Both the position numbers and the translations under genes were made by a program. From positions 1 through 38,065 of the IMG/VR virus record IMGVR_UViG_3300028569_000081: a stretch of DNA of 38,065 nt; one strand, 5' to 3'. This DNA comes from a virus. Below the pieces are notes generated by a model. The model was not told where the DNA came from, did no database searches, and worked only from the letters and a program-made list of their open reading frames with translations. Shown piece by piece: positions 2,134 through 8,934 of this stretch (the stretch's first letter is position 1; every line of letters begins with the position of its first letter).

Positions 2134-2289
2134 ATGATCGCCGTCGAAGTCGTGTTCGCGTCCGGGATGACGCACACATTCATCGTTCCGAAGACCATCA
2201 CATTGGTGGACTTCGCCGCCCTGGCCAAGCCGGTCGACGAGACCAAGATCCGTCGGTTCAAGGTCATCGCCCAGGGGAAGGCCGCATGA
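2134..2289 (+). CDS. Small hypothetical protein, 51 aa
   Basis: A 51-codon frame begins at ATG 2134, five bases after GAGGAGA of the conserved leader, and ends in TGA overlapping the ATG of the next gene (ATGA at 2286-2289). The protein is a short alternating beta/alpha sequence (MIAVEVVFASGMTHTFIVPK, then a basic C-terminus) with no recognised family. Its perfect placement between a strong ribosome site and a coupled downstream start is the main evidence that it is real. It was probably kept as the leader cistron that delivers ribosomes to the next gene, but a separate function cannot be excluded. Confidence 0.6.
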   Translation: MIAVEVVFASGMTHTFIVPKTITLVDFAALAKPVDETKIRRFKVIAQGKAA

Positions 2290-3062
2290 AGATCCTCGGT
2301 CACACGTATGCACCGAAGAAGGGGACGGTGGTCGACGGTCTGCCGGCCGTCATCGTGCTCGAGAGCGGCACGACCACCAAGTTCATCACGGACTCTCAGA
2401 TCGGCGATGCCGACTATCCGTGGTTGACCATCGTCTCGATGCCCACCAAGGAGTTCGAGACCAAGTTCGCGCGTACGCAGGATGATCTGCAGGCCATTGC
2501 CAAGATCTACCGCGAGCACGCCCAACAGCTCGGCGCAACGCCCGAGGCCCTGGATGCTCTGGGGTACATTTTCACCATCGACGAAGGAACTGTGAACATG
2601 GCCACCGCCACCGCCACCGCCACCGCCACCGAGGAGAAGAAGGCCAAGCCGGTCGCGACCTCCAAGGCCCCCACCAAGACCACCGCCCCGAAGCCGGCGG
2701 CCAAGGCCACCACCCCTCCGCCCGCCAAGGAGGCCAAGCCGAAGGCCGCGGCGCCGAAGGAGCCCGAGGAAAAGCGCCCCTCCGTGTCCAGCCGGATCTG
2801 CGAGCTGATCATGGCGGGGAAGCTGTCGGACGACGACATCTTCGCCACGGTGAAGAAGGAGTTCAACCTCGACGACTCCAAGCGCGGCTACGTCGGCTGG
2901 AACCGGAACCACCTGAAGAAGCAGGGCCAGAACCCGCCCGGCCCGATCGGTGGCGCCGAGAAGAAGGCGGACAAGCCGGCGGCTGCGCCGAAGGCCGCGG
3001 CCTCCAAGGCGCCGCCGGCCAAGGCCCCGGTCTCCCGCAAGACCGGCTCCGGCAAGGGCTGA
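2286..3062 (+). CDS. Early protein with Ala/Lys/Pro-rich linkers and the repeated helical domain, 258 aa
   Basis: The ATG at 2286 overlaps the previous stop. Residues 1-104 form an unrecognised folded region. Residues 105-160 are low-complexity: five Ala-Thr units, then Lys/Ala/Pro repeats like a histone H1 tail. Residues about 166-218 carry the helical domain shared with the 1588-2073 product (CELIMAGKLSDDDIF, GYVGWNRNHLKKQGQ). The tail is again Lys/Ala/Pro-rich. The basic tails suggest nucleic-acid binding (inference). An in-frame ATG at 2598 has AAGGA nine bases upstream, so a shorter 154-residue product starting just before the Ala-Thr repeat is possible. It directly precedes the modification cassette. 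Confidence 0.7.
   Translation: MKILGHTYAPKKGTVVDGLPAVIVLESGTTTKFITDSQIGDADYPWLTIVSMPTKEFETKFARTQDDLQAIAKIYREHAQQLGATPEALDALGYIFTIDEGTVNMATATATATATEEKKAKPVATSKAPTKTTAPKPAAKATTPPPAKEAKPKAAAPKEPEEKRPSVSSRICELIMAGKLSDDDIFATVKKEFNLDDSKRGYVGWNRNHLKKQGQNPPGPIGGAEKKADKPAAAPKAAASKAPPAKAPVSRKTGSGKG
2601..2630 (+). repeat. Five tandem GCCACC hexanucleotides inside a CDS
   Basis: Five perfect copies of GCCACC encode alternating Ala-Thr. They sit right after a possible internal start (ATG 2598) of the 2286-3062 gene. Copy number could vary by slippage in steps of two residues without shifting the frame. Confidence 0.9.
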
Positions 3063-3068
3063 TCCATC

Positions 3069-4070
3069 ATGGGGCTGTACCTCTACAGCCCCCTGACCTC
3101 TGTGACTGACCGCATCGAGGTCAGTCACAGAGCTGGGTGGGCTCTGTACTGGGCGGAAGAGCTCGGTGCCAAGCTGGTCACAACCAGCCAGATGGATGGC
3201 TTCGCCAACGGGGTCAACCCCGGCGACACCGTCTACCTCTACCACGGGATGGAGTTCAAGGACTCTTTGAACTTCCCCGGCGGCCCGCAGCCGGAGATTT
3301 ACGACCGGGCCAACGACCTCCGTCTCATCGGCGAGAAGACGGGCTCCAGACTGTTCAGCGCCGATCGTGACATGCCCGACTACGCCGGCCTGCTCGGCAG
3401 CCGCCTGGATCCCAAGCGCTTCGACCGGAAGAAGCTCCACGGAGCGCTTGCCCGAGGCGTGGGGCAGAGATGGCCGACGGCGAAGCCGAAGCACCTCGTG
3501 GTCGGCGACAGCCACTCCCTGTCTCTCTACCGGAAGGGCAGCAGGATCCATCGGAACGACGGACTGACCTTGTACGGTGCCCTCGAGAGGGGTCTGGCCG
3601 GTCTGGTCAAGAAAGCGGCGTGCCCAGGGCTAAGCAGCATCACGCTGTACCTGGGCAACATCGACATCCGGCACCACCTGCTCCGCCATCCGCAGGTCAG
3701 CCGGGTGGAGCTTCTCGCCGAATACCGTCGCCAACTCAAGGATCTGGTCAAGCAGTATCCGAAGCAGCAGATCGTGGTGGCGGAGCCTCTGCCCATTGAG
3801 AACGAGTCGCGGAAGCTGCCCAAGACCGGCTGGTACAAGGGCACCCCGTTCTTCGGCTCGTGGGCTGACCGAGCCAACCTTCGGGACTGGTGGGCTGACG
3901 AGATGAACAAGTGGCCGACGGACGGCATCACGATCTACCGCCATCCCCGCCACTTCTGGAACGGCGAAGGCGAGCTGGACTTCGACGTCATGGAGAAGCC
4001 GCAGTCCGTCCACATCAGGCCGGCTGAGTACCGGCATGTCAGGGAGAGCGGTCCATGGTCCAGCATCTGA
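3069..4070 (+). CDS. SGNH/GDSL-like protein in the DNA-modification cassette, 333 aa
   Basis: The sequence contains VVGDSHS at residues 144-150, a GDS block in which Ser148 would be the nucleophile; LYLGNIDIRHH near 193-203, matching the SGNH Gly/Asn block; and SVHIRP near 313-318, where His315 could be the catalytic base. This spacing fits an SGNH-hydrolase-like fold such as those seen in polysaccharide-modifying proteins, although the family of this protein is not known to me. The first 130 residues form an unrecognised alpha/beta region. The start at ATG 3069 lies six bases after the previous stop with only a weak AAGGGC ribosome site, and two strong hairpins fall within codons 1-22. The 3' end overlaps the transferase gene by 16 bases, so a role linked to base modification (for example acyl transfer or removal) is possible but inferred from context. 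Confidence 0.6.
   Translation: MGLYLYSPLTSVTDRIEVSHRAGWALYWAEELGAKLVTTSQMDGFANGVNPGDTVYLYHGMEFKDSLNFPGGPQPEIYDRANDLRLIGEKTGSRLFSADRDMPDYAGLLGSRLDPKRFDRKKLHGALARGVGQRWPTAKPKHLVVGDSHSLSLYRKGSRIHRNDGLTLYGALERGLAGLVKKAACPGLSSITLYLGNIDIRHHLLRHPQVSRVELLAEYRRQLKDLVKQYPKQQIVVAEPLPIENESRKLPKTGWYKGTPFFGSWADRANLRDWWADEMNKWPTDGITIYRHPRHFWNGEGELDFDVMEKPQSVHIRPAEYRHVRESGPWSSI
3071..3132 (+). promoter_or_regulatory. Two consecutive perfect hairpins at the start of the SGNH-like gene
   Basis: Hairpin 1: GGGGCTGTA (3071-3079), loop CCTC, TACAGCCCC (3084-3092), 9 of 9 pairs. Hairpin 2: CTCTGTGACTGACC (3098-3111), 7-base loop, GGTCAGTCACAGAG (3119-3132), 14 of 14 pairs. Both lie in the first 22 codons, starting two bases after the ATG. 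No T-run follows. They may control translation initiation, protect or process the mRNA between the small-gene cluster and the modification cassette, or form a protein-binding DNA palindrome. Confidence 0.7.
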
Positions 4071-5197
4071 AGAGCATCGAAGATGAAGCCAGGTCGAAAG
4101 ACCTGGTTATCATTTCCAAGACCGACGTGTGGCGCAAGCGTCTCCGGGAGGCGTCTCGCGCCATCGAGCGGGCCTCGGAGTTCAGCCTGACGCCCACCCC
4201 GTACTTCGTGGAGGCCTACCACTACTGGCACCGGGCGAAGGGTCTCCAGGACAAGAACCTAGGCGCCAAGCCGGCGAAGTTCAAGTCGGGGTGCGATCTT
4301 CAGGACAGCATCCCCATCTACGACACGGTGAAGCGTCGCTATGCTGGGTTCTCCAACGTTCTGGAACAGCTGCGGTACGGGGACGAGGCGCCGAAGATCG
4401 CCAGCAACCGGCTCCGCCAGTTCGACTACCCCAAGTTCGAGGGCGACAACCGAGCATGGCTCTACGTCTGCCTGGTCCATCGCATCACCGGCTCAGGCGC
4501 CAGCTTCGAGCACGACCACGGCTGGCGAAACACGATTGTGCCAGAGATGGTGACTAAGCCGTCGATCCCTCTGATGGCTTCGTGGGTCAGCTACAACCGA
4601 AACCGGACGATGTTCACCAGCATCGGCAACCAGATCCCGCCGTTCAACAAGCTGAAGGACCCGTCCTTCCGACTGGCGGGGATCGAGTATCTTGTCACGA
4701 TCGCCCCGAAGCTGGTCGACGAGGTGTGGTCTTGGTTCGAGCACCGCCGTCGCCACAAAATGGGACCAGCCGGGATCAAGCTGGCCGCCGACCAGGTCCT
4801 GGCCTTCCAACGCGAGCTGGGCTGCAAGCAGTTCAAGTTCGTCCTGACGGCGTGGGTGATGGACATGGCCGAGTATCTGCCGGAGATGGTGGATCCCAAC
4901 TCGGACTGCTACCACGGGAAGAACGCGCAGGAGGCCTTGTCGGTCTGCCTTCGCCCCGCCGATGGCGTGCGCATGAACGCCCAGGAGTTCTTCGACCGGG
5001 GAACTCGGCTGTTCAGCGATCTGACCGGCACCCACCCGATGGACGTGGAAGACGCCAGCCCGGGCTGCGATCTGGTTCGGTGGTTGGAGAACTACGTCCC
5101 TCGCAATGGCTTCAGCCACGTGCTGGAGAACGGCCTGTTCAACAACTCGACCCTTCGCTACTTCAAGGGCCGCCAACCCGAAGGGAACTATCCGTGA
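4055..5197 (+). CDS. Probable amino acid:DNA transferase (alpha-glutamyl/putrescinyl thymine pyrophosphorylase type)
   Basis: A 380-residue, largely helical protein. Features include PTPYFVEAYHYWHRAK (47-62), RYAGFSNVLEQLRYGD (95-110), the central HRITGSGASFEHDHGWRNT (142-160) and MDVEDASPGCDLVRWLENY (329-347). These resemble the ADDT group, whose members replace a pyrophosphate on 5-(pyrophosphoryloxymethyl)-dU in DNA with an amino acid or polyamine to make hypermodified thymine. The assignment is from memory of the family and from context: the next genes encode a PLP enzyme, a thymidylate-kinase-like P-loop protein and a thymidylate-synthase-like enzyme, the expected partners. The ATG at 4055 overlaps the previous gene by 16 bases and has GGGAGAG about 8 bases upstream. 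The amino donor cannot be told from the sequence. An alternative is an unrelated helical DNA-glycosylase-like enzyme. Confidence 0.55.
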   Translation: MVQHLKSIEDEARSKDLVIISKTDVWRKRLREASRAIERASEFSLTPTPYFVEAYHYWHRAKGLQDKNLGAKPAKFKSGCDLQDSIPIYDTVKRRYAGFSNVLEQLRYGDEAPKIASNRLRQFDYPKFEGDNRAWLYVCLVHRITGSGASFEHDHGWRNTIVPEMVTKPSIPLMASWVSYNRNRTMFTSIGNQIPPFNKLKDPSFRLAGIEYLVTIAPKLVDEVWSWFEHRRRHKMGPAGIKLAADQVLAFQRELGCKQFKFVLTAWVMDMAEYLPEMVDPNSDCYHGKNAQEALSVCLRPADGVRMNAQEFFDRGTRLFSDLTGTHPMDVEDASPGCDLVRWLENYVPRNGFSHVLENGLFNNSTLRYFKGRQPEGNYP

Positions 5198-6120
5198 CTC
5201 ACACCAACCACACCTCTTCTCCATCCCACAAGGAGCTGGACCAGCTGGGTGAGTCCCGGCTCTGGGATCTGGTTCGGGACTGGCAGGATCCTCTGCCTCT
5301 CCCGCCGGTCGACAAGATCAAGCTGGACTCCAAGCGGACCATCTACGTGGTTCGCGATGACATTATGGGGTTCGGTACCAAGGCCAGGGCCGGCTCGGCT
5401 GCGCTGTTCCAGCCGGAGTACAAGAAGACCAAGACCATCGTCTACGTCGCTCCGCGGGTGGGGTGGGCGCCGATGTCGTTGGCCAAGCTGTGCCGTGATA
5501 CCAAGCGGAGGCTGATCCTGTTCGCCCCAGCAGCCGCGACGCCTTCCCAGCACCAGCTGACGGCCCACGCTCTCGGCGCCGACCTGAGGTTCGTCCGCGT
5601 GGCGGCCATGCCCAACCTCCAGCGGATGGCGCGGAAGTTCGCCGAGGACCATGGCTACACCTTCTTCCCGCTCGGTCTCGACGTACCGGCGGCCGTGGCA
5701 GGGATCGCCAAGACGGCTCGGCTGGTGGCGGACCGTGAGATCGACGACTTCCGGAAGGTCAAGGAGTTCTGGACGGTGATCAGCACCGGCGTGCTGAGCC
5801 GTGGTCTCCAGCTGGCCTGGCCCAGGGCCAAGGTCTTCGCCGTCGCTGTGGCGAGGAACATCCACGATGGCGAGAAGGGCAGGGCCGAGATCTTCAGCCA
5901 TCATCTGCCGTTCACGCAGAACGTCAAGGCGGACCTGGCTCCGCCGTTCCCTTCGGTCCTGTCCTACGATGCCAAGGCCTGGACCTTCATCAACGACCAC
6001 GCGTCCAACGGCGCCTGGTTCTGGAACGTGGCGGCTGAGCCGCCGGTCTCTCCCTCGAAAGGGGAGGTGCTGCGGTCGAATGTTGGCTGGAACGATATGT
6101 CAGCGTTCGATCACGCGTAG
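5194..6120 (+). CDS. PLP-dependent, tryptophan-synthase-beta-like (fold type II) enzyme
   Basis: The GTG at 5194 overlaps the transferase stop (GTGA), with AAGGGA upstream; the product is 308 residues. The core reads like a small fold-type-II PLP enzyme of the ACC-deaminase/threonine-synthase superfamily: RDDIMGFGTKAR at 54-65 with Lys63 as the likely Schiff-base lysine, a first Rossmann-like unit TIVYVAP..GWAPMSLAKLC, the ALGADLRFVRV segment at 126-136 typical of these folds, and a Thr-Gly turn, VISTGVLSRGLQLAWP (195-210), in the position of the Gly-rich phosphate loop. In known thymidine hypermodification pathways a PLP enzyme processes the amino acid after it is attached to the base, so tailoring (such as decarboxylation or side-chain cleavage) of the attached group is inferred. 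The C-terminal 50 residues are unassigned. Confidence 0.6.
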   Translation: MTHTNHTSSPSHKELDQLGESRLWDLVRDWQDPLPLPPVDKIKLDSKRTIYVVRDDIMGFGTKARAGSAALFQPEYKKTKTIVYVAPRVGWAPMSLAKLCRDTKRRLILFAPAAATPSQHQLTAHALGADLRFVRVAAMPNLQRMARKFAEDHGYTFFPLGLDVPAAVAGIAKTARLVADREIDDFRKVKEFWTVISTGVLSRGLQLAWPRAKVFAVAVARNIHDGEKGRAEIFSHHLPFTQNVKADLAPPFPSVLSYDAKAWTFINDHASNGAWFWNVAAEPPVSPSKGEVLRSNVGWNDMSAFDHA

Positions 6121-6151: not shown

Positions 6152-6670
6152 ATGGACGAGACAACAGCCAACTTTGCATTCCCGACGGAGGATGTGGACG
6201 ACGAGATCTATGATGTCCACCATTTTCACCAGAGGTTTGGCCAGCTGGCGCCGGATGAGATCACACATCTGACGCAGCGCAAGCTGGCAGAACGTGCCAA
6301 CTTCCATCTGGAGGAGGCGGTGGTTGAATTTCGCAAGGCGGCGGCAAGCCAGGATATGGCGCTGATGGCCGATGCGCTGGTCGACGCAGTCTATGTGCTG
6401 AAAGGCACCGCCGTGATGTTGGGGTTGACCGGTATTTGGCGACACCTGTGGAATGACGTCCACGAAGCCAACATGCGCAAGGTGCCGGGCACCACGCACC
6501 GCGGCAACAAGGTCGACGTGATGAAGCCGCCTGGCTGGGTCGGTCCGCAGACCGGAGCCGTGCTCTGCATGGCCGGCTATGACAAGGCCCAGTTCTGCAA
6601 CCTGCTCGGCGAAGTGGACGAGACCAAATGCCTCGACGACTTAGTCCACCTGGAGAAGGACAATCCGTGA
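6152..6670 (+). CDS. MazG/PRA-PH-like nucleotide pyrophosphohydrolase
   Basis: A 172-residue all-alpha protein. The pattern HHFHQRFGQ near residue 24, then ANFHLEEAVVEFRKA (49-63) and MALMADALVDAVYVLKGTA (70-88), followed by W..VHEANMRK, is that of the MazG/HisE-type NTP pyrophosphohydrolases: Glu-x-x-Glu and Asp-x-x-Asp pairs bind Mg2+ and cleave (d)NTP to (d)NMP and PPi. In phages such enzymes remove unwanted dNTPs such as dUTP or dTTP, supplying monophosphates for base modification. The ATG at 6152 follows the conserved GAGGAGA leader. The stop overlaps the next start as TGATG. The substrate is inferred from the neighbours, which use dNMPs. Confidence 0.75.
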   Translation: MDETTANFAFPTEDVDDEIYDVHHFHQRFGQLAPDEITHLTQRKLAERANFHLEEAVVEFRKAAASQDMALMADALVDAVYVLKGTAVMLGLTGIWRHLWNDVHEANMRKVPGTTHRGNKVDVMKPPGWVGPQTGAVLCMAGYDKAQFCNLLGEVDETKCLDDLVHLEKDNP

Positions 6671-7629
6671 TGACCATTTCCTCGAGGCTGACCATCTTCG
6701 AGGGCCCGGATGGCGGTGGCAAGTCCACCGCCGCTCGGCGTTTTGCCGAGAAGACCGGTGCCCGGTATGTCCACTGCGGGTCGTTCAAGAACGTCCAGCG
6801 GATCGGCCGGTTCTACGTGGAGGCCATGCTGCCGGCGCTGCTCGGCTATCAGGACGTGGTGATGGACCGGTGCTGGCTGAGCGAGAAGCCGTATGGTGAT
6901 GCCTTCCGCCAGGGTCATGATCGTCTCGGCGTGACCAGCGTCCGTGCGCTGGAGAGGCTGGCCTTCCGGTGCTCCACCCTTGTCGTGTGGTGCCTGCCGC
7001 CGTACGACCGGATCCGGTCCAGCTTCATGGAGCGGAAGCAGATCGAGATGTTGGAGGACGAGTCGCAGCTGAAGCAGGTGGACACGTCCTACCGCGGTGC
7101 CACGACGAGCCTGCCGTCGATCGTATACGACTACACGCGCACGCCGTTGCCGGCGCCTCGTGCCATGGACAGGCAGCGGTCAGTGGCGCACGGGCTGGAC
7201 TTCCAGACCGCCGGCAACCATTCGGCGCCCATCGCGCTGGTGGGCGAAGGCTTCTCCGAGCCGAAGGACGGGGACTGCCTGTACCAGTGGCCGTTCGGCT
7301 CTATGAACCACAGCCGCTGCAGCCACTGGCTGACGCAGAACCTGGAGGACGCTGGCATCAGTGAGTCCAGCCTCTTCTGGGTCAACTCCGACCAGGGGGA
7401 CCACGACGACATGCGCGAGATGCTCGGTGAGCGACGCCATGTCGTGGCTCTTGGGGCCAAAGCCCTGACCCGTCTGACCGAACTCGACATCGATTGCAGC
7501 GCCGTCGAGCACCCGCAGAGCTGGAAGAGGTTCAAGTCCTCGCAGCCCTACCCCCTCGGCAAGTTGTTGGCGGACGACATTCAGCTCGCCAACTCCATCT
7601 TCAAGACCATGCAAGGAGCAGCAGAATGA
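6670..7629 (+). CDS. Thymidylate-kinase-like P-loop kinase fused to a UDG-like domain (candidate 5-hmdU DNA kinase)
   Basis: The ATG at 6670 overlaps the previous stop (TGATG) with GGAGAAGGA about 8 bases upstream; the product is 319 residues. Residues 1-170 form a P-loop kinase of the thymidylate kinase group: Walker A EGPDGGGKST (11-20), DR at 66-67 in VVMDRCWLSEKPYG, and a lid-like region around 115-140. Residues 186-300 resemble a uracil-DNA glycosylase fold: IALVGEGFSEP (188-198), WPFGSMNHS (207-215), LFWVNSD (235-241), VVALGAKAL (258-266) and HPQSWKRF (281-288). The usual acidic catalytic residue of the first UDG motif is not evident, so the domain may only bind a flipped base. 5-hmdU DNA kinases belong to the thymidylate kinase family, and the fusion with a base-recognising domain fits a kinase acting on DNA. 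A free dNMP kinase remains possible. Confidence 0.65.
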   Translation: MTISSRLTIFEGPDGGGKSTAARRFAEKTGARYVHCGSFKNVQRIGRFYVEAMLPALLGYQDVVMDRCWLSEKPYGDAFRQGHDRLGVTSVRALERLAFRCSTLVVWCLPPYDRIRSSFMERKQIEMLEDESQLKQVDTSYRGATTSLPSIVYDYTRTPLPAPRAMDRQRSVAHGLDFQTAGNHSAPIALVGEGFSEPKDGDCLYQWPFGSMNHSRCSHWLTQNLEDAGISESSLFWVNSDQGDHDDMREMLGERRHVVALGAKALTRLTELDIDCSAVEHPQSWKRFKSSQPYPLGKLLADDIQLANSIFKTMQGAAE

Positions 7630-8447
7630 CCGAGAGTTTCGACCAGTCTTGGCTGAAGACCCTGGCCACGATCCTGGAGCAGGGCAAAGAGGTCTCGCCG
7701 CGCGGGATGAAGACTATGGAGGTGCCGCAATACACCGTCGAGGTGGACATGCGGTATCCCGTCCTGACATGCCCGCAACGCAAACTCAACTATCGGTTCA
7801 TGGCGGCCGAGGCGTTCTGGATCCTGTCGGGCGACAACACCGTCGCCGGCATCGCCCCGTGGAATGTCAACATCGCCAAGTTCAGCGACGACGGCGAGAC
7901 CTTCCATGGCGCCTACGGTCCTCGGATCGTGGACCAGCTGCCCTACGTGGTCGGCAAGCTCATCTCGGATCGGGACACTCGGCAGGCGGTCATCACGACC
8001 TGGATCCAGAAGCCCGGTGCTTCGAAGGACATTCCCTGCACGGTGGCCTTCGACTTCAAGATCCGCGACGGCAAGCTGAACCTCCACGTGTTCATGCGGT
8101 CGTCCGATGTCTGGCTCGGTCTGCCGTATGACACCTTCAACTTCTCGATGCTCGCCGCCCTGGTCTGCACGATCATCAACACCTTCGGCGGCGCCATGTG
8201 GGAGACCGTCGGCCTCGGGCGTCTCTTCCTGACGGCGGCCAGCAGCCATCTCTATGAGCAGCATTTCGAGGCTGCCCGCGAGTGCCTGAAGGTGCACGAT
8301 TTCCGGTTCTGCGCCGAAGTGCCGGAAGGTCTCTACGTGGCGATGGACAACGGCGACTCGCTGATGGAGTATCTTCGGACCCTCCGAGACGCCAAGAGGG
8401 GCGACAACCTTCGGTGGTGGGAGTTGGATCGTGCGTCCGACGCGTGA
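7626..8447 (+). CDS. Thymidylate-synthase-family enzyme, probable (d)CMP/dUMP hydroxymethylase
   Basis: 273 residues, start ATG 7626 overlapping the kinase stop (ATGA). The thymidylate synthase fold is clear: Glu62 in AAEAFWILSGD, HGAYGPR (94-100), catalytic Cys138 in DIPCTVAF, RSSDVWLGLPYD (158-169) and SSHLYEQH (206-213). Two departures stand out. The Asn that selects dUMP (E. coli Asn177, in LGLPFN) is Asp169 here, the change that in T4 gp42 goes with dCMP specificity. The His after the catalytic Cys is Thr. The C-terminal folate-closing tail of true thymidylate synthases is missing. The enzyme is therefore more likely a hydroxymethylase than a dTMP maker. Given the dCMP deaminase next door, it might make 5-hydroxymethyl-dCMP or -dUMP; the sequence favours dCMP. 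Confidence 0.85.
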   Translation: MTESFDQSWLKTLATILEQGKEVSPRGMKTMEVPQYTVEVDMRYPVLTCPQRKLNYRFMAAEAFWILSGDNTVAGIAPWNVNIAKFSDDGETFHGAYGPRIVDQLPYVVGKLISDRDTRQAVITTWIQKPGASKDIPCTVAFDFKIRDGKLNLHVFMRSSDVWLGLPYDTFNFSMLAALVCTIINTFGGAMWETVGLGRLFLTAASSHLYEQHFEAARECLKVHDFRFCAEVPEGLYVAMDNGDSLMEYLRTLRDAKRGDNLRWWELDRASDA

Positions 8448-8934
8448 ACGCTGGGCCATGGACATGGCCCTCCTGACGGCGAAGCGGTCCACGTGCTGCC
8501 GTCGCCAGGTCGGCTGTGTCCTGCTGAACGAGCGCGGCCACGTCCTCGCCACTGGATACAACGGCGTGGCTGCCGGTCTTCCGCACTGCAATGATAGGGT
8601 CTTGGAAGATCCTGTCGACGTCGGGCTCTCCCACGCAGGACTTGTCGGTAGGCAGGTCACGTACCCGTTTGCCTGCGAGGGTGCGGCGTCCCCGTCCGGC
8701 ACCAACCTCGATGCCTGCCAGGCGATCCACGCAGAGCAGAACGCTCTGCTGCAGTGTAGAGACGTCTACGCCATCGACACGACTTTCGTGACGGCGAGCC
8801 CATGCGTGACCTGCACGAAGCTGCTGCTCAACACGGGCTGCAGGAGGGTGGTGTACCTGGAGGAGTATCCGCACTCGGCGGCCAGGGAGCTGTGGCTCTC
8901 CGCTGGCCGCCAGTGGGAGAAGATAGAGGCCTAG
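8431..8934 (+). CDS. dCMP deaminase
   Basis: 167 residues of the cytidine/deoxycytidylate deaminase family. Zinc ligands and catalytic residues are visible: His100 and Glu102 in IHAEQNALL, and Cys125 and Cys128 in SPCVTCTK. The N-terminal AKRSTCCRRQVGCVLL and GYNG motifs are typical of dCMP deaminases. The start is GTG 8431, overlapping the upstream gene by 17 bases with GGGAG upstream; the later ATG 8458 would cut conserved sequence. It converts dCMP to dUMP, and phage enzymes may also accept 5-substituted dCMP. It is the last gene of the plus-strand block, and its stop lies inside a terminator hairpin. Confidence 0.9.
   Translation: MRPTRERWAMDMALLTAKRSTCCRRQVGCVLLNERGHVLATGYNGVAAGLPHCNDRVLEDPVDVGLSHAGLVGRQVTYPFACEGAASPSGTNLDACQAIHAEQNALLQCRDVYAIDTTFVTASPCVTCTKLLLNTGCRRVVYLEEYPHSAARELWLSAGRQWEKIEA

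Follow-up and report, generated by a model that had tools for sequence, protein, structure and literature searches.

Gene Content of the Locus

The window, by which we mean the whole stretch of DNA that was analyzed, is the virus record IMGVR_UViG_3300028569_000081 of 38,065 bases. It is probably a fragment of a larger genome, because DNA polymerase I was not found within these 38,065 bases and two close relatives of the window are 56 kb contigs. The genes considered here (Table 1) follow one another in the order SGNH-like protein, 4055-5197 protein, PLP enzyme, MazG-like protein, kinase-like protein, hydroxymethylase and dCMP deaminase.

Table 1. Coordinates of the genes discussed, and the evidence for each assignment.
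Position	Strand	Assignment	Evidence
2286..3062	+	Lys/Ala-rich small protein, kept beside the cassette	Conservation in the loci of relatives
3069..4070	+	SGNH-hydrolase/acyltransferase-like protein with invariant GDSH; module gene 1	Alignment, Pfam and PHROG searches
4055..5197	+	Amino-acid:DNA-transferase-like protein; module gene 2; no Pfam/PHROG family	AlphaFold2 model, BFVD and PDB folds
5194..6120	+	Fold-type II PLP enzyme, cysteine-synthase-related; module gene 3	Pfam PALP 1.3e-6 (below cut-off)
6152..6670	+	MazG-like nucleoside triphosphate pyrophosphohydrolase	Pfam PRA-PH 8.8e-9; PHROG 6.6e-22
6628..7629	+	P-loop nucleoside-monophosphate-kinase-like protein with extra C-terminal domain	PHROG thymidylate kinase 1.9e-13; PDB profile 2axp yorR 3.3e-10
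7626..8447	+	TS-family pyrimidine hydroxymethylase, predicted dCMP type	Asp169, Cys138, Asp135, Thr139, Met157, RWWE tail
8431..8934	+	dCMP deaminase, zinc site intact (HAE, PCxxC)	Pfam PF00383 1.1e-20; PHROG dCMP deaminase 1.5e-42

The reading frame of the hydroxymethylase starts with ATG downstream of an AAGGAG-like site, overlaps the stop of the kinase gene by four bases and is translated without stops into 273 residues. The protein matched the Pfam family Thymidylat_synt (2.2e-25, 89.8 bits, cut-off 24.3), stayed below the NCBIfam equivalog cut-offs for thymidylate synthase (TS), and had MilA as its top sequence match in the PDB (5.2e-17). Database labels for such enzymes vary, and include thymidylate synthase, deoxyuridylate hydroxymethyltransferase and pyrimidine HMase.

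The cassette of MazG, kinase, hydroxymethylase and deaminase genes was also found in many IMG/VR contigs, in PW916 (whose kinase carries no annotation and was found by tblastn) and in the Stenotrophomonas phage AXL3, where gp27-gp31 include orthologs of all four in the same annotated order, the hydroxymethylase having 51% identity to that of the window. AXL3 and PW916 differ from the window in having a SAM methyltransferase upstream of the cassette, where the window has its first three genes. No kinase-like gene was seen in the L066 operon. The extra C-terminal domain of the kinase-like protein (residues about 195-325) is conserved, and is missing in L025 and L026; a match of this domain to a uracil-DNA glycosylase (1vk2, E 0.074) was too weak to be accepted as its identity. 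ThyX, considered as a general source of dTMP, was present in only two of nine records and provides no general rule. Between the helicase and the cassette, the window has two related Lys/Ala-rich small proteins (1588-2073 and 2286-3062), which are kept in many relatives.

Residues of the Thymidylate Synthase Homolog

The initial annotation had pointed to LGLPYD in place of LGLPFN, with Asp at the selector position, as in dCMP hydroxymethylases. Both parts of this observation were borne out. The motif occupies residues 164-169, and Asp169 (codon at 8130-8132) corresponds to E. coli position 177, the selector, which is N177 in ThyA. In a 46-row alignment with E. coli ThyA numbering, the window protein has D143, T147, M165 and D177 (its own Asp135, Thr139, Met157 and Asp169), the same four residues as T4 gp42, and keeps Cys146, Arg166, Ser167, Asp169, His207 and Tyr209 (E. 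coli numbering). E. coli ThyA has Leu143, His147 and Asn177, and the window protein differs at each. The counter-example that the annotation had named, an Asp-bearing dUMP hydroxymethylase, did not come to light, as the enzymes of SPO1 (gp29), M6, ViI and phiW-14 (four of four) have Asn177 together with Asn147. T147 and M165 were present in all 39 rows with D177 and in none of the seven rows with N177, counts in which many of the 46 rows are near relatives, so that the cells are not independent; T4 gp42, 44RR gp42 and the L089/L090 enzymes fall outside the clade of the window in the tree. Across the 46 rows compared, residues 147, 165 and 177 provide a rule that tells dCMP from dUMP hydroxymethylases.

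In the MetaGPA report, positions 177 and 147 are those that best separate TS homologs of modified from those of unmodified phage contigs, and Asp177 is found in the homologs of modified contigs (PMC8670742). The MilA paper gives Asp for cytosine enzymes, and Asn for TS and dUMP hydroxymethylase (PMC5175136). In T4 dCMP hydroxymethylase, whose selector is numbered Asp179, Asp145, which lies three positions ahead of the Cys, is described as activating water, and the signature of these enzymes is given as including a Ser two residues before the Tyr (T4 Ser94 and Tyr96) (PMC6400193).

The catalytic nucleophile of the window enzyme is Cys138, and Asp135 lies three residues ahead of it, at the position where enzymes of the T4 gp42 kind are expected to have Asp or Glu. 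Two residues before the catalytic Tyr97, the window enzyme has Gly95, and the Ser/Thr of the published signature is not there; this position is Gly in M6, ViI and phiW-14, and Ala in SPO1. The usual Arg-Arg phosphate-binding pair is replaced by Arg119-Gln120, as in SPO1 and ViI. Gly95 for the signature Ser/Thr, and Gln120 for the second phosphate-binding Arg, may both be held against dCMP as the substrate. Because of Gly95, we do not strictly file the enzyme in the T4 family by the published signature, and its residues suggest that it would work like the T4 enzyme. A deoxynucleotide substrate is suggested by Ser159 and Arg119, as both are found in deoxynucleotide enzymes, whereas the CMP hydroxymethylase MilA (BcmA), with which the window enzyme has the Asp selector in common, has Ala and Lys at these positions (PMC5175136). 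We consider dCMP very likely to be the substrate of the window enzyme.

A further claim of the annotation, that the folate-closing C-terminus is absent, held in substance. The end of ThyA that closes over folate is gone, but the tail has been replaced rather than simply shortened, as 66 residues follow the conserved His in the window enzyme compared with 58 in ThyA. This replacement tail, with R-W-W-E (8412-8423) at its end, is conserved among the enzymes of the group to which the window belongs. The enzyme differs from T4 gp42 in this extra tail, in having Gly rather than Ser before the Tyr and R-Q rather than R-R, and in belonging to a separate lineage.

A scan of IMG/VR identified 33 loci with a TS homolog, 32 of which have Asp at the selector. 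The lone Asn case, L061, looks like an ordinary synthase and is also the one locus of the 33 with no deaminase near the TS homolog. In a tree of 49 rows, which has weak deep forks and several long branches, the four dUMP hydroxymethylases formed one well-supported group and the T4-like gp42 enzymes another, with the window elsewhere; the N/D label needs two changes on this tree.

A Three-Gene Module Upstream of the Cassette

Relatives of the 4055-5197 protein were found in 27 other records, 26 of them viral and one a Gallionella metagenome-assembled genome (MAG). The contig from this MAG (L063), which has the whole cassette beside phage-like genes, probably represents a prophage or else a phage that was co-assembled; the MAG has an ordinary host ThyA. 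A tblastn search of the phage collection with the 4055-5197 protein gave no match at 0.01. Twenty-two members of its family had no convincing match in Pfam or PHROG (best E 0.017-0.42, from single or few members), the protein did not match the curated amino-acid:DNA transferase models PF18723 and PF18746, and the aGPT-Pplase3 model matched none of 11 records.

Beside the 4055-type gene, an SGNH gene was present in 26 of 27 records and a PLP gene in 25 of 27, and in L081 and L084 the SGNH protein is fused to the transferase-like protein. The GDSH column of the nucleophile block and the SVH column of the later His block were invariant in all 12 SGNH-like members; Pfam SGNH was matched by three of the 12 (best 8.8e-4) and Lipase_GDSL by two (best 2.7e-4), in searches for which no curated cut-offs were shown. 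In the PLP protein (P0004) the Lys at residue 61 is invariant, and cysteine synthase was nearest in a profile comparison with the PDB (1.1e-5). No PLP homolog was found in 44RR, AXL3, phage G or ctUtU524. Relatives of the PLP protein occur within genes annotated as DNA modification methylase in Erythrobacter phage R6L (L092:6001-6726) and Microcystis phage Mae-JY30 (L093:5995-6705).

A TS homolog accompanied the module in 23 of 27 records, within the locus in 20 and elsewhere in the whole record in three, and the remaining four records, which lack it, are contigs between 6.7 and 25.4 kb long. All 23 homologs have D143, C146, T147, M165 and D177. Several of these 23 records are near-copies of one another (e.g., L068 to L072), so that independent support is the number of hydroxymethylase lineages, namely the window type, a T4-gp42-like type (L065 to L073) and the L089/L090 type.

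Among 68 loci, 29 (27 distinct records) have a 4055-type gene and 21 a SAM methyltransferase, and none has both. The module (window 3069-6120) and the AXL3-type methyltransferase (L003:5641-6465) are found at one and the same position of the cassette.

Predicted Fold of the 4055-5197 Protein

A first AlphaFold2 model of the 4055-5197 protein, from six sequences, was poor (pLDDT 58) and was discarded. The model from 22 sequences had a pLDDT of 89 and a pTM of 0.88. After a near relative (68% identity), its next match in BFVD was an "Amino acid:DNA transferase domain-containing protein" (E 1.2e-15, TM 0.74), followed more weakly by an alpha-glutamyl/putrescinyl thymine pyrophosphorylase (E 0.045) and an HMUDK helical-domain protein (E 0.14). 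A Foldseek search of the PDB returned nothing at E <= 0.001. With VIA-align the top match was 8z2m, the 5-PmdU glycinyltransferase of PaMx11 (Z 9.3, rmsd 4.3, 212 aligned), and the runners-up for this mostly helical protein, a queuosine-salvage DUF2419 protein (8.1) and the AGOG glycosylase (7.9), scored only about 1 lower. On these models, we assign the protein with moderate confidence as a putative transferase-like member of the helix-hairpin-helix glycosylase superfamily.

Proposed Pathway

From what was observed, namely the residues, the order of the genes, the module's constant pairing with dCMP-type enzymes and the predicted fold, we infer each of the following catalytic steps. The MazG-like protein probably hydrolyzes dCTP and would thereby supply dCMP. 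By analogy with T4, from which the mechanism is transferred, Cys138 would attack C6 of dCMP with methylene-tetrahydrofolate as the cofactor, Asp169 would protonate and orient the cytosine ring, and Asp135 would activate a water that quenches the exocyclic methylene, to give 5-hydroxymethyl-dCMP and tetrahydrofolate. The adjacent kinase-like protein probably phosphorylates hmdCMP, raising it towards hmdCTP, and the base would be incorporated into DNA instead of cytosine. The role of the deaminase would be to supply dTMP and to balance the pools, not to form hmdUMP. In the DNA, the SGNH, transferase-like and PLP proteins would most likely add an amino acid, or a derivative of one, to the hydroxymethyl group carried by cytosine, a decoration that probably serves the escape of phage DNA from bacterial restriction enzymes.

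We have fair confidence in this account as a whole, and that the product is kept as a modified cytosine appears likely. Amino-acid decoration by the module is put forward tentatively, as the fold match is moderate and the predicted function would differ from that of the known transferases, which act on the uracil base. To our knowledge, uracil has been the substrate of all amino-acid:DNA transferases so far. The known amino-acid decorations of phage bases, as far as we found, are made at thymine positions by routes that begin with dUMP hydroxymethylases, and the exclusive pairing of the module with dCMP-type hydroxymethylases predicts amino-acid-bearing cytosines. In the titles and opening lines of abstracts surveyed, which mostly excluded subscription papers, there was no mention of cytosine amino-acid transferases or of a phage route from hmdCMP to hmdUMP. 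The hydroxymethylase is a known kind of enzyme, and the adjoining module is the new part. More speculatively still, the locus may encode a new cytosine-hypermodification pathway, in which hydroxymethylcytosine made by a dCMP-type enzyme would be the substrate of a new family of amino-acid:DNA transferases, the PLP enzyme would shape the amino acid and, in at least some phages, the SGNH acyltransferase-like protein would activate the hydroxyl instead of a DNA kinase.

Alternatives and the Identity of the Modified Base

The enzyme might be a dCMP hydroxymethylase that leads to plain 5-hmC in DNA, with the three upstream genes unrelated to it, and the occurrence of the same cassette with an unrelated SAM methyltransferase in the place of the module is consistent with this. 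We regard it as unlikely, as the dCMP-type enzymes to which the module is linked belong to at least three lineages, and as a DNA-modification fold is predicted for its central protein.

The initial annotation had raised a different route, in which dCMP is hydroxymethylated first and hmdCMP is then deaminated to hmdUMP by the neighboring enzyme, so that the transferase-like module would hypermodify thymine positions. That the deaminase nearly always adjoins the Asp-type gene (32 of 33 IMG/VR relatives, and present in 19 of 27 module records) is a point against a modified cytosine. In addition, the transferase-like protein resembles the 5-PmdU glycinyltransferase, and human DCTD is said to deaminate hmdCMP (PMC12386326). 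We nevertheless disfavor the deamination route and consider it quite improbable. T4, in which a PF00383 deaminase was found, pairs the same two enzymes and has hydroxymethylcytosine as its end product. The complete genome record of HTVC200P (42,221 bases) encodes the Asp enzyme, and a search of it for PF00383 deaminases found none; nor was a deaminase found in four module records that were searched whole, which may be fragments.

Restriction data from AXL3 also argue against this route. The sites of SmaI and NotI have no T among their letters. AXL3 DNA resists 35 of 37 restriction enzymes, is uncut by MspI, HpaII, HhaI, HaeIII, SmaI, ApaI and NotI, all with sites that lack T, and is cut only by TasI and Tru1I, at sites of A and T only (AATT/TTAA) (PMC7504290). 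In a second study, T4 DNA resisted 214 of 227 enzymes and was cut at AATT and TTAA, while the 5hmdU-containing DNA of SP8 resisted 17 of 204 (PMC7653180). Because the AXL3 digests resemble those of T4, and are unlike those of SP8, the shared cassette appears to modify cytosine; the same digests would also be compatible with a modified guanine in AXL3. As AXL3 has the methyltransferase in place of the module, its digests support the shared nucleotide route and not the module.

The HMUDK_hel domain, a marker of thymine hypermodification and the 5-hmdU kinase, was present in all three Asn-type phages M6, ViI and phiW-14, and matched weakly in 44RR2.8t. It was not detected in T4, AXL3, ctUtU524, phage G, HTVC200P, AB434P2, the L066 record or the window, and thymine hypermodification via HMUDK was rejected for the window on this basis.

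A dCMP methylase of the Xp12 kind, producing 5-methyl-dCMP, is conceivable because N-to-D mutants of an ordinary synthase methylate dCMP (cited in PMC8670742). Compared with ThyA, the window enzyme has the water-activating D135 in place of Leu and lacks the ThyA C-terminus, and we consider a methylase very unlikely. A thymidylate synthase that uses dUMP, whether ordinary or drifted, would fit the Pfam family membership but is extremely improbable, since the enzyme departs from ThyA at each of the four discriminating positions, which are conserved throughout the clade.

Comparison with Known Systems

In the four residues D143, T147, M165 and D177, the window enzyme is like T4 gp42, whose pathway partners are gp56, gp1 and cd. 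As in the window, the T4 enzyme is accompanied by a dCTPase-like protein, a kinase and a dCMP deaminase (PMC6400193). Unlike T4, no glucosyltransferase was recognized among the ten window proteins scanned against Pfam and PHROG. Thymine hypermodification in M6, PaMx11 and ViI, which proceeds through a dUMP hydroxymethylase, 5-HMUDK and an amino-acid:DNA transferase, resembles the window in combining a TS-family enzyme with a transferase-fold protein (the fold being predicted for the window), and differs in that M6 and ViI have an Asn-type hydroxymethylase with HMUDK_hel. The phages with a 5-hmC carbamoyltransferase described in MetaGPA are like the window in having a dCMP-type TS homolog together with an hmC-decorating enzyme, although the decorating enzymes differ (PMC8670742).

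Aeromonas phage 44RR2.8t is T4-like and has a gp42 of the D177 type. Its ORF233c (L094:8001-10388, 795 residues) consists of an SGNH half and a C-terminal half, mirroring the fusions in L081 and L084. The C-terminal half was tried as a module transferase and did not match (profile score -2.3 bits); it is this half that gave the weak match to HMUDK_hel (6e-4, 19.7 bits, cut-off 25). Cultured T4-like Aeromonas phages with the related fused gene, such as 44RR2.8t, provide a clear test case for cytosine decoration. Homologs of the SGNH half of ORF233c were found in 43 phage records, 38 of which are from Aeromonas phages.
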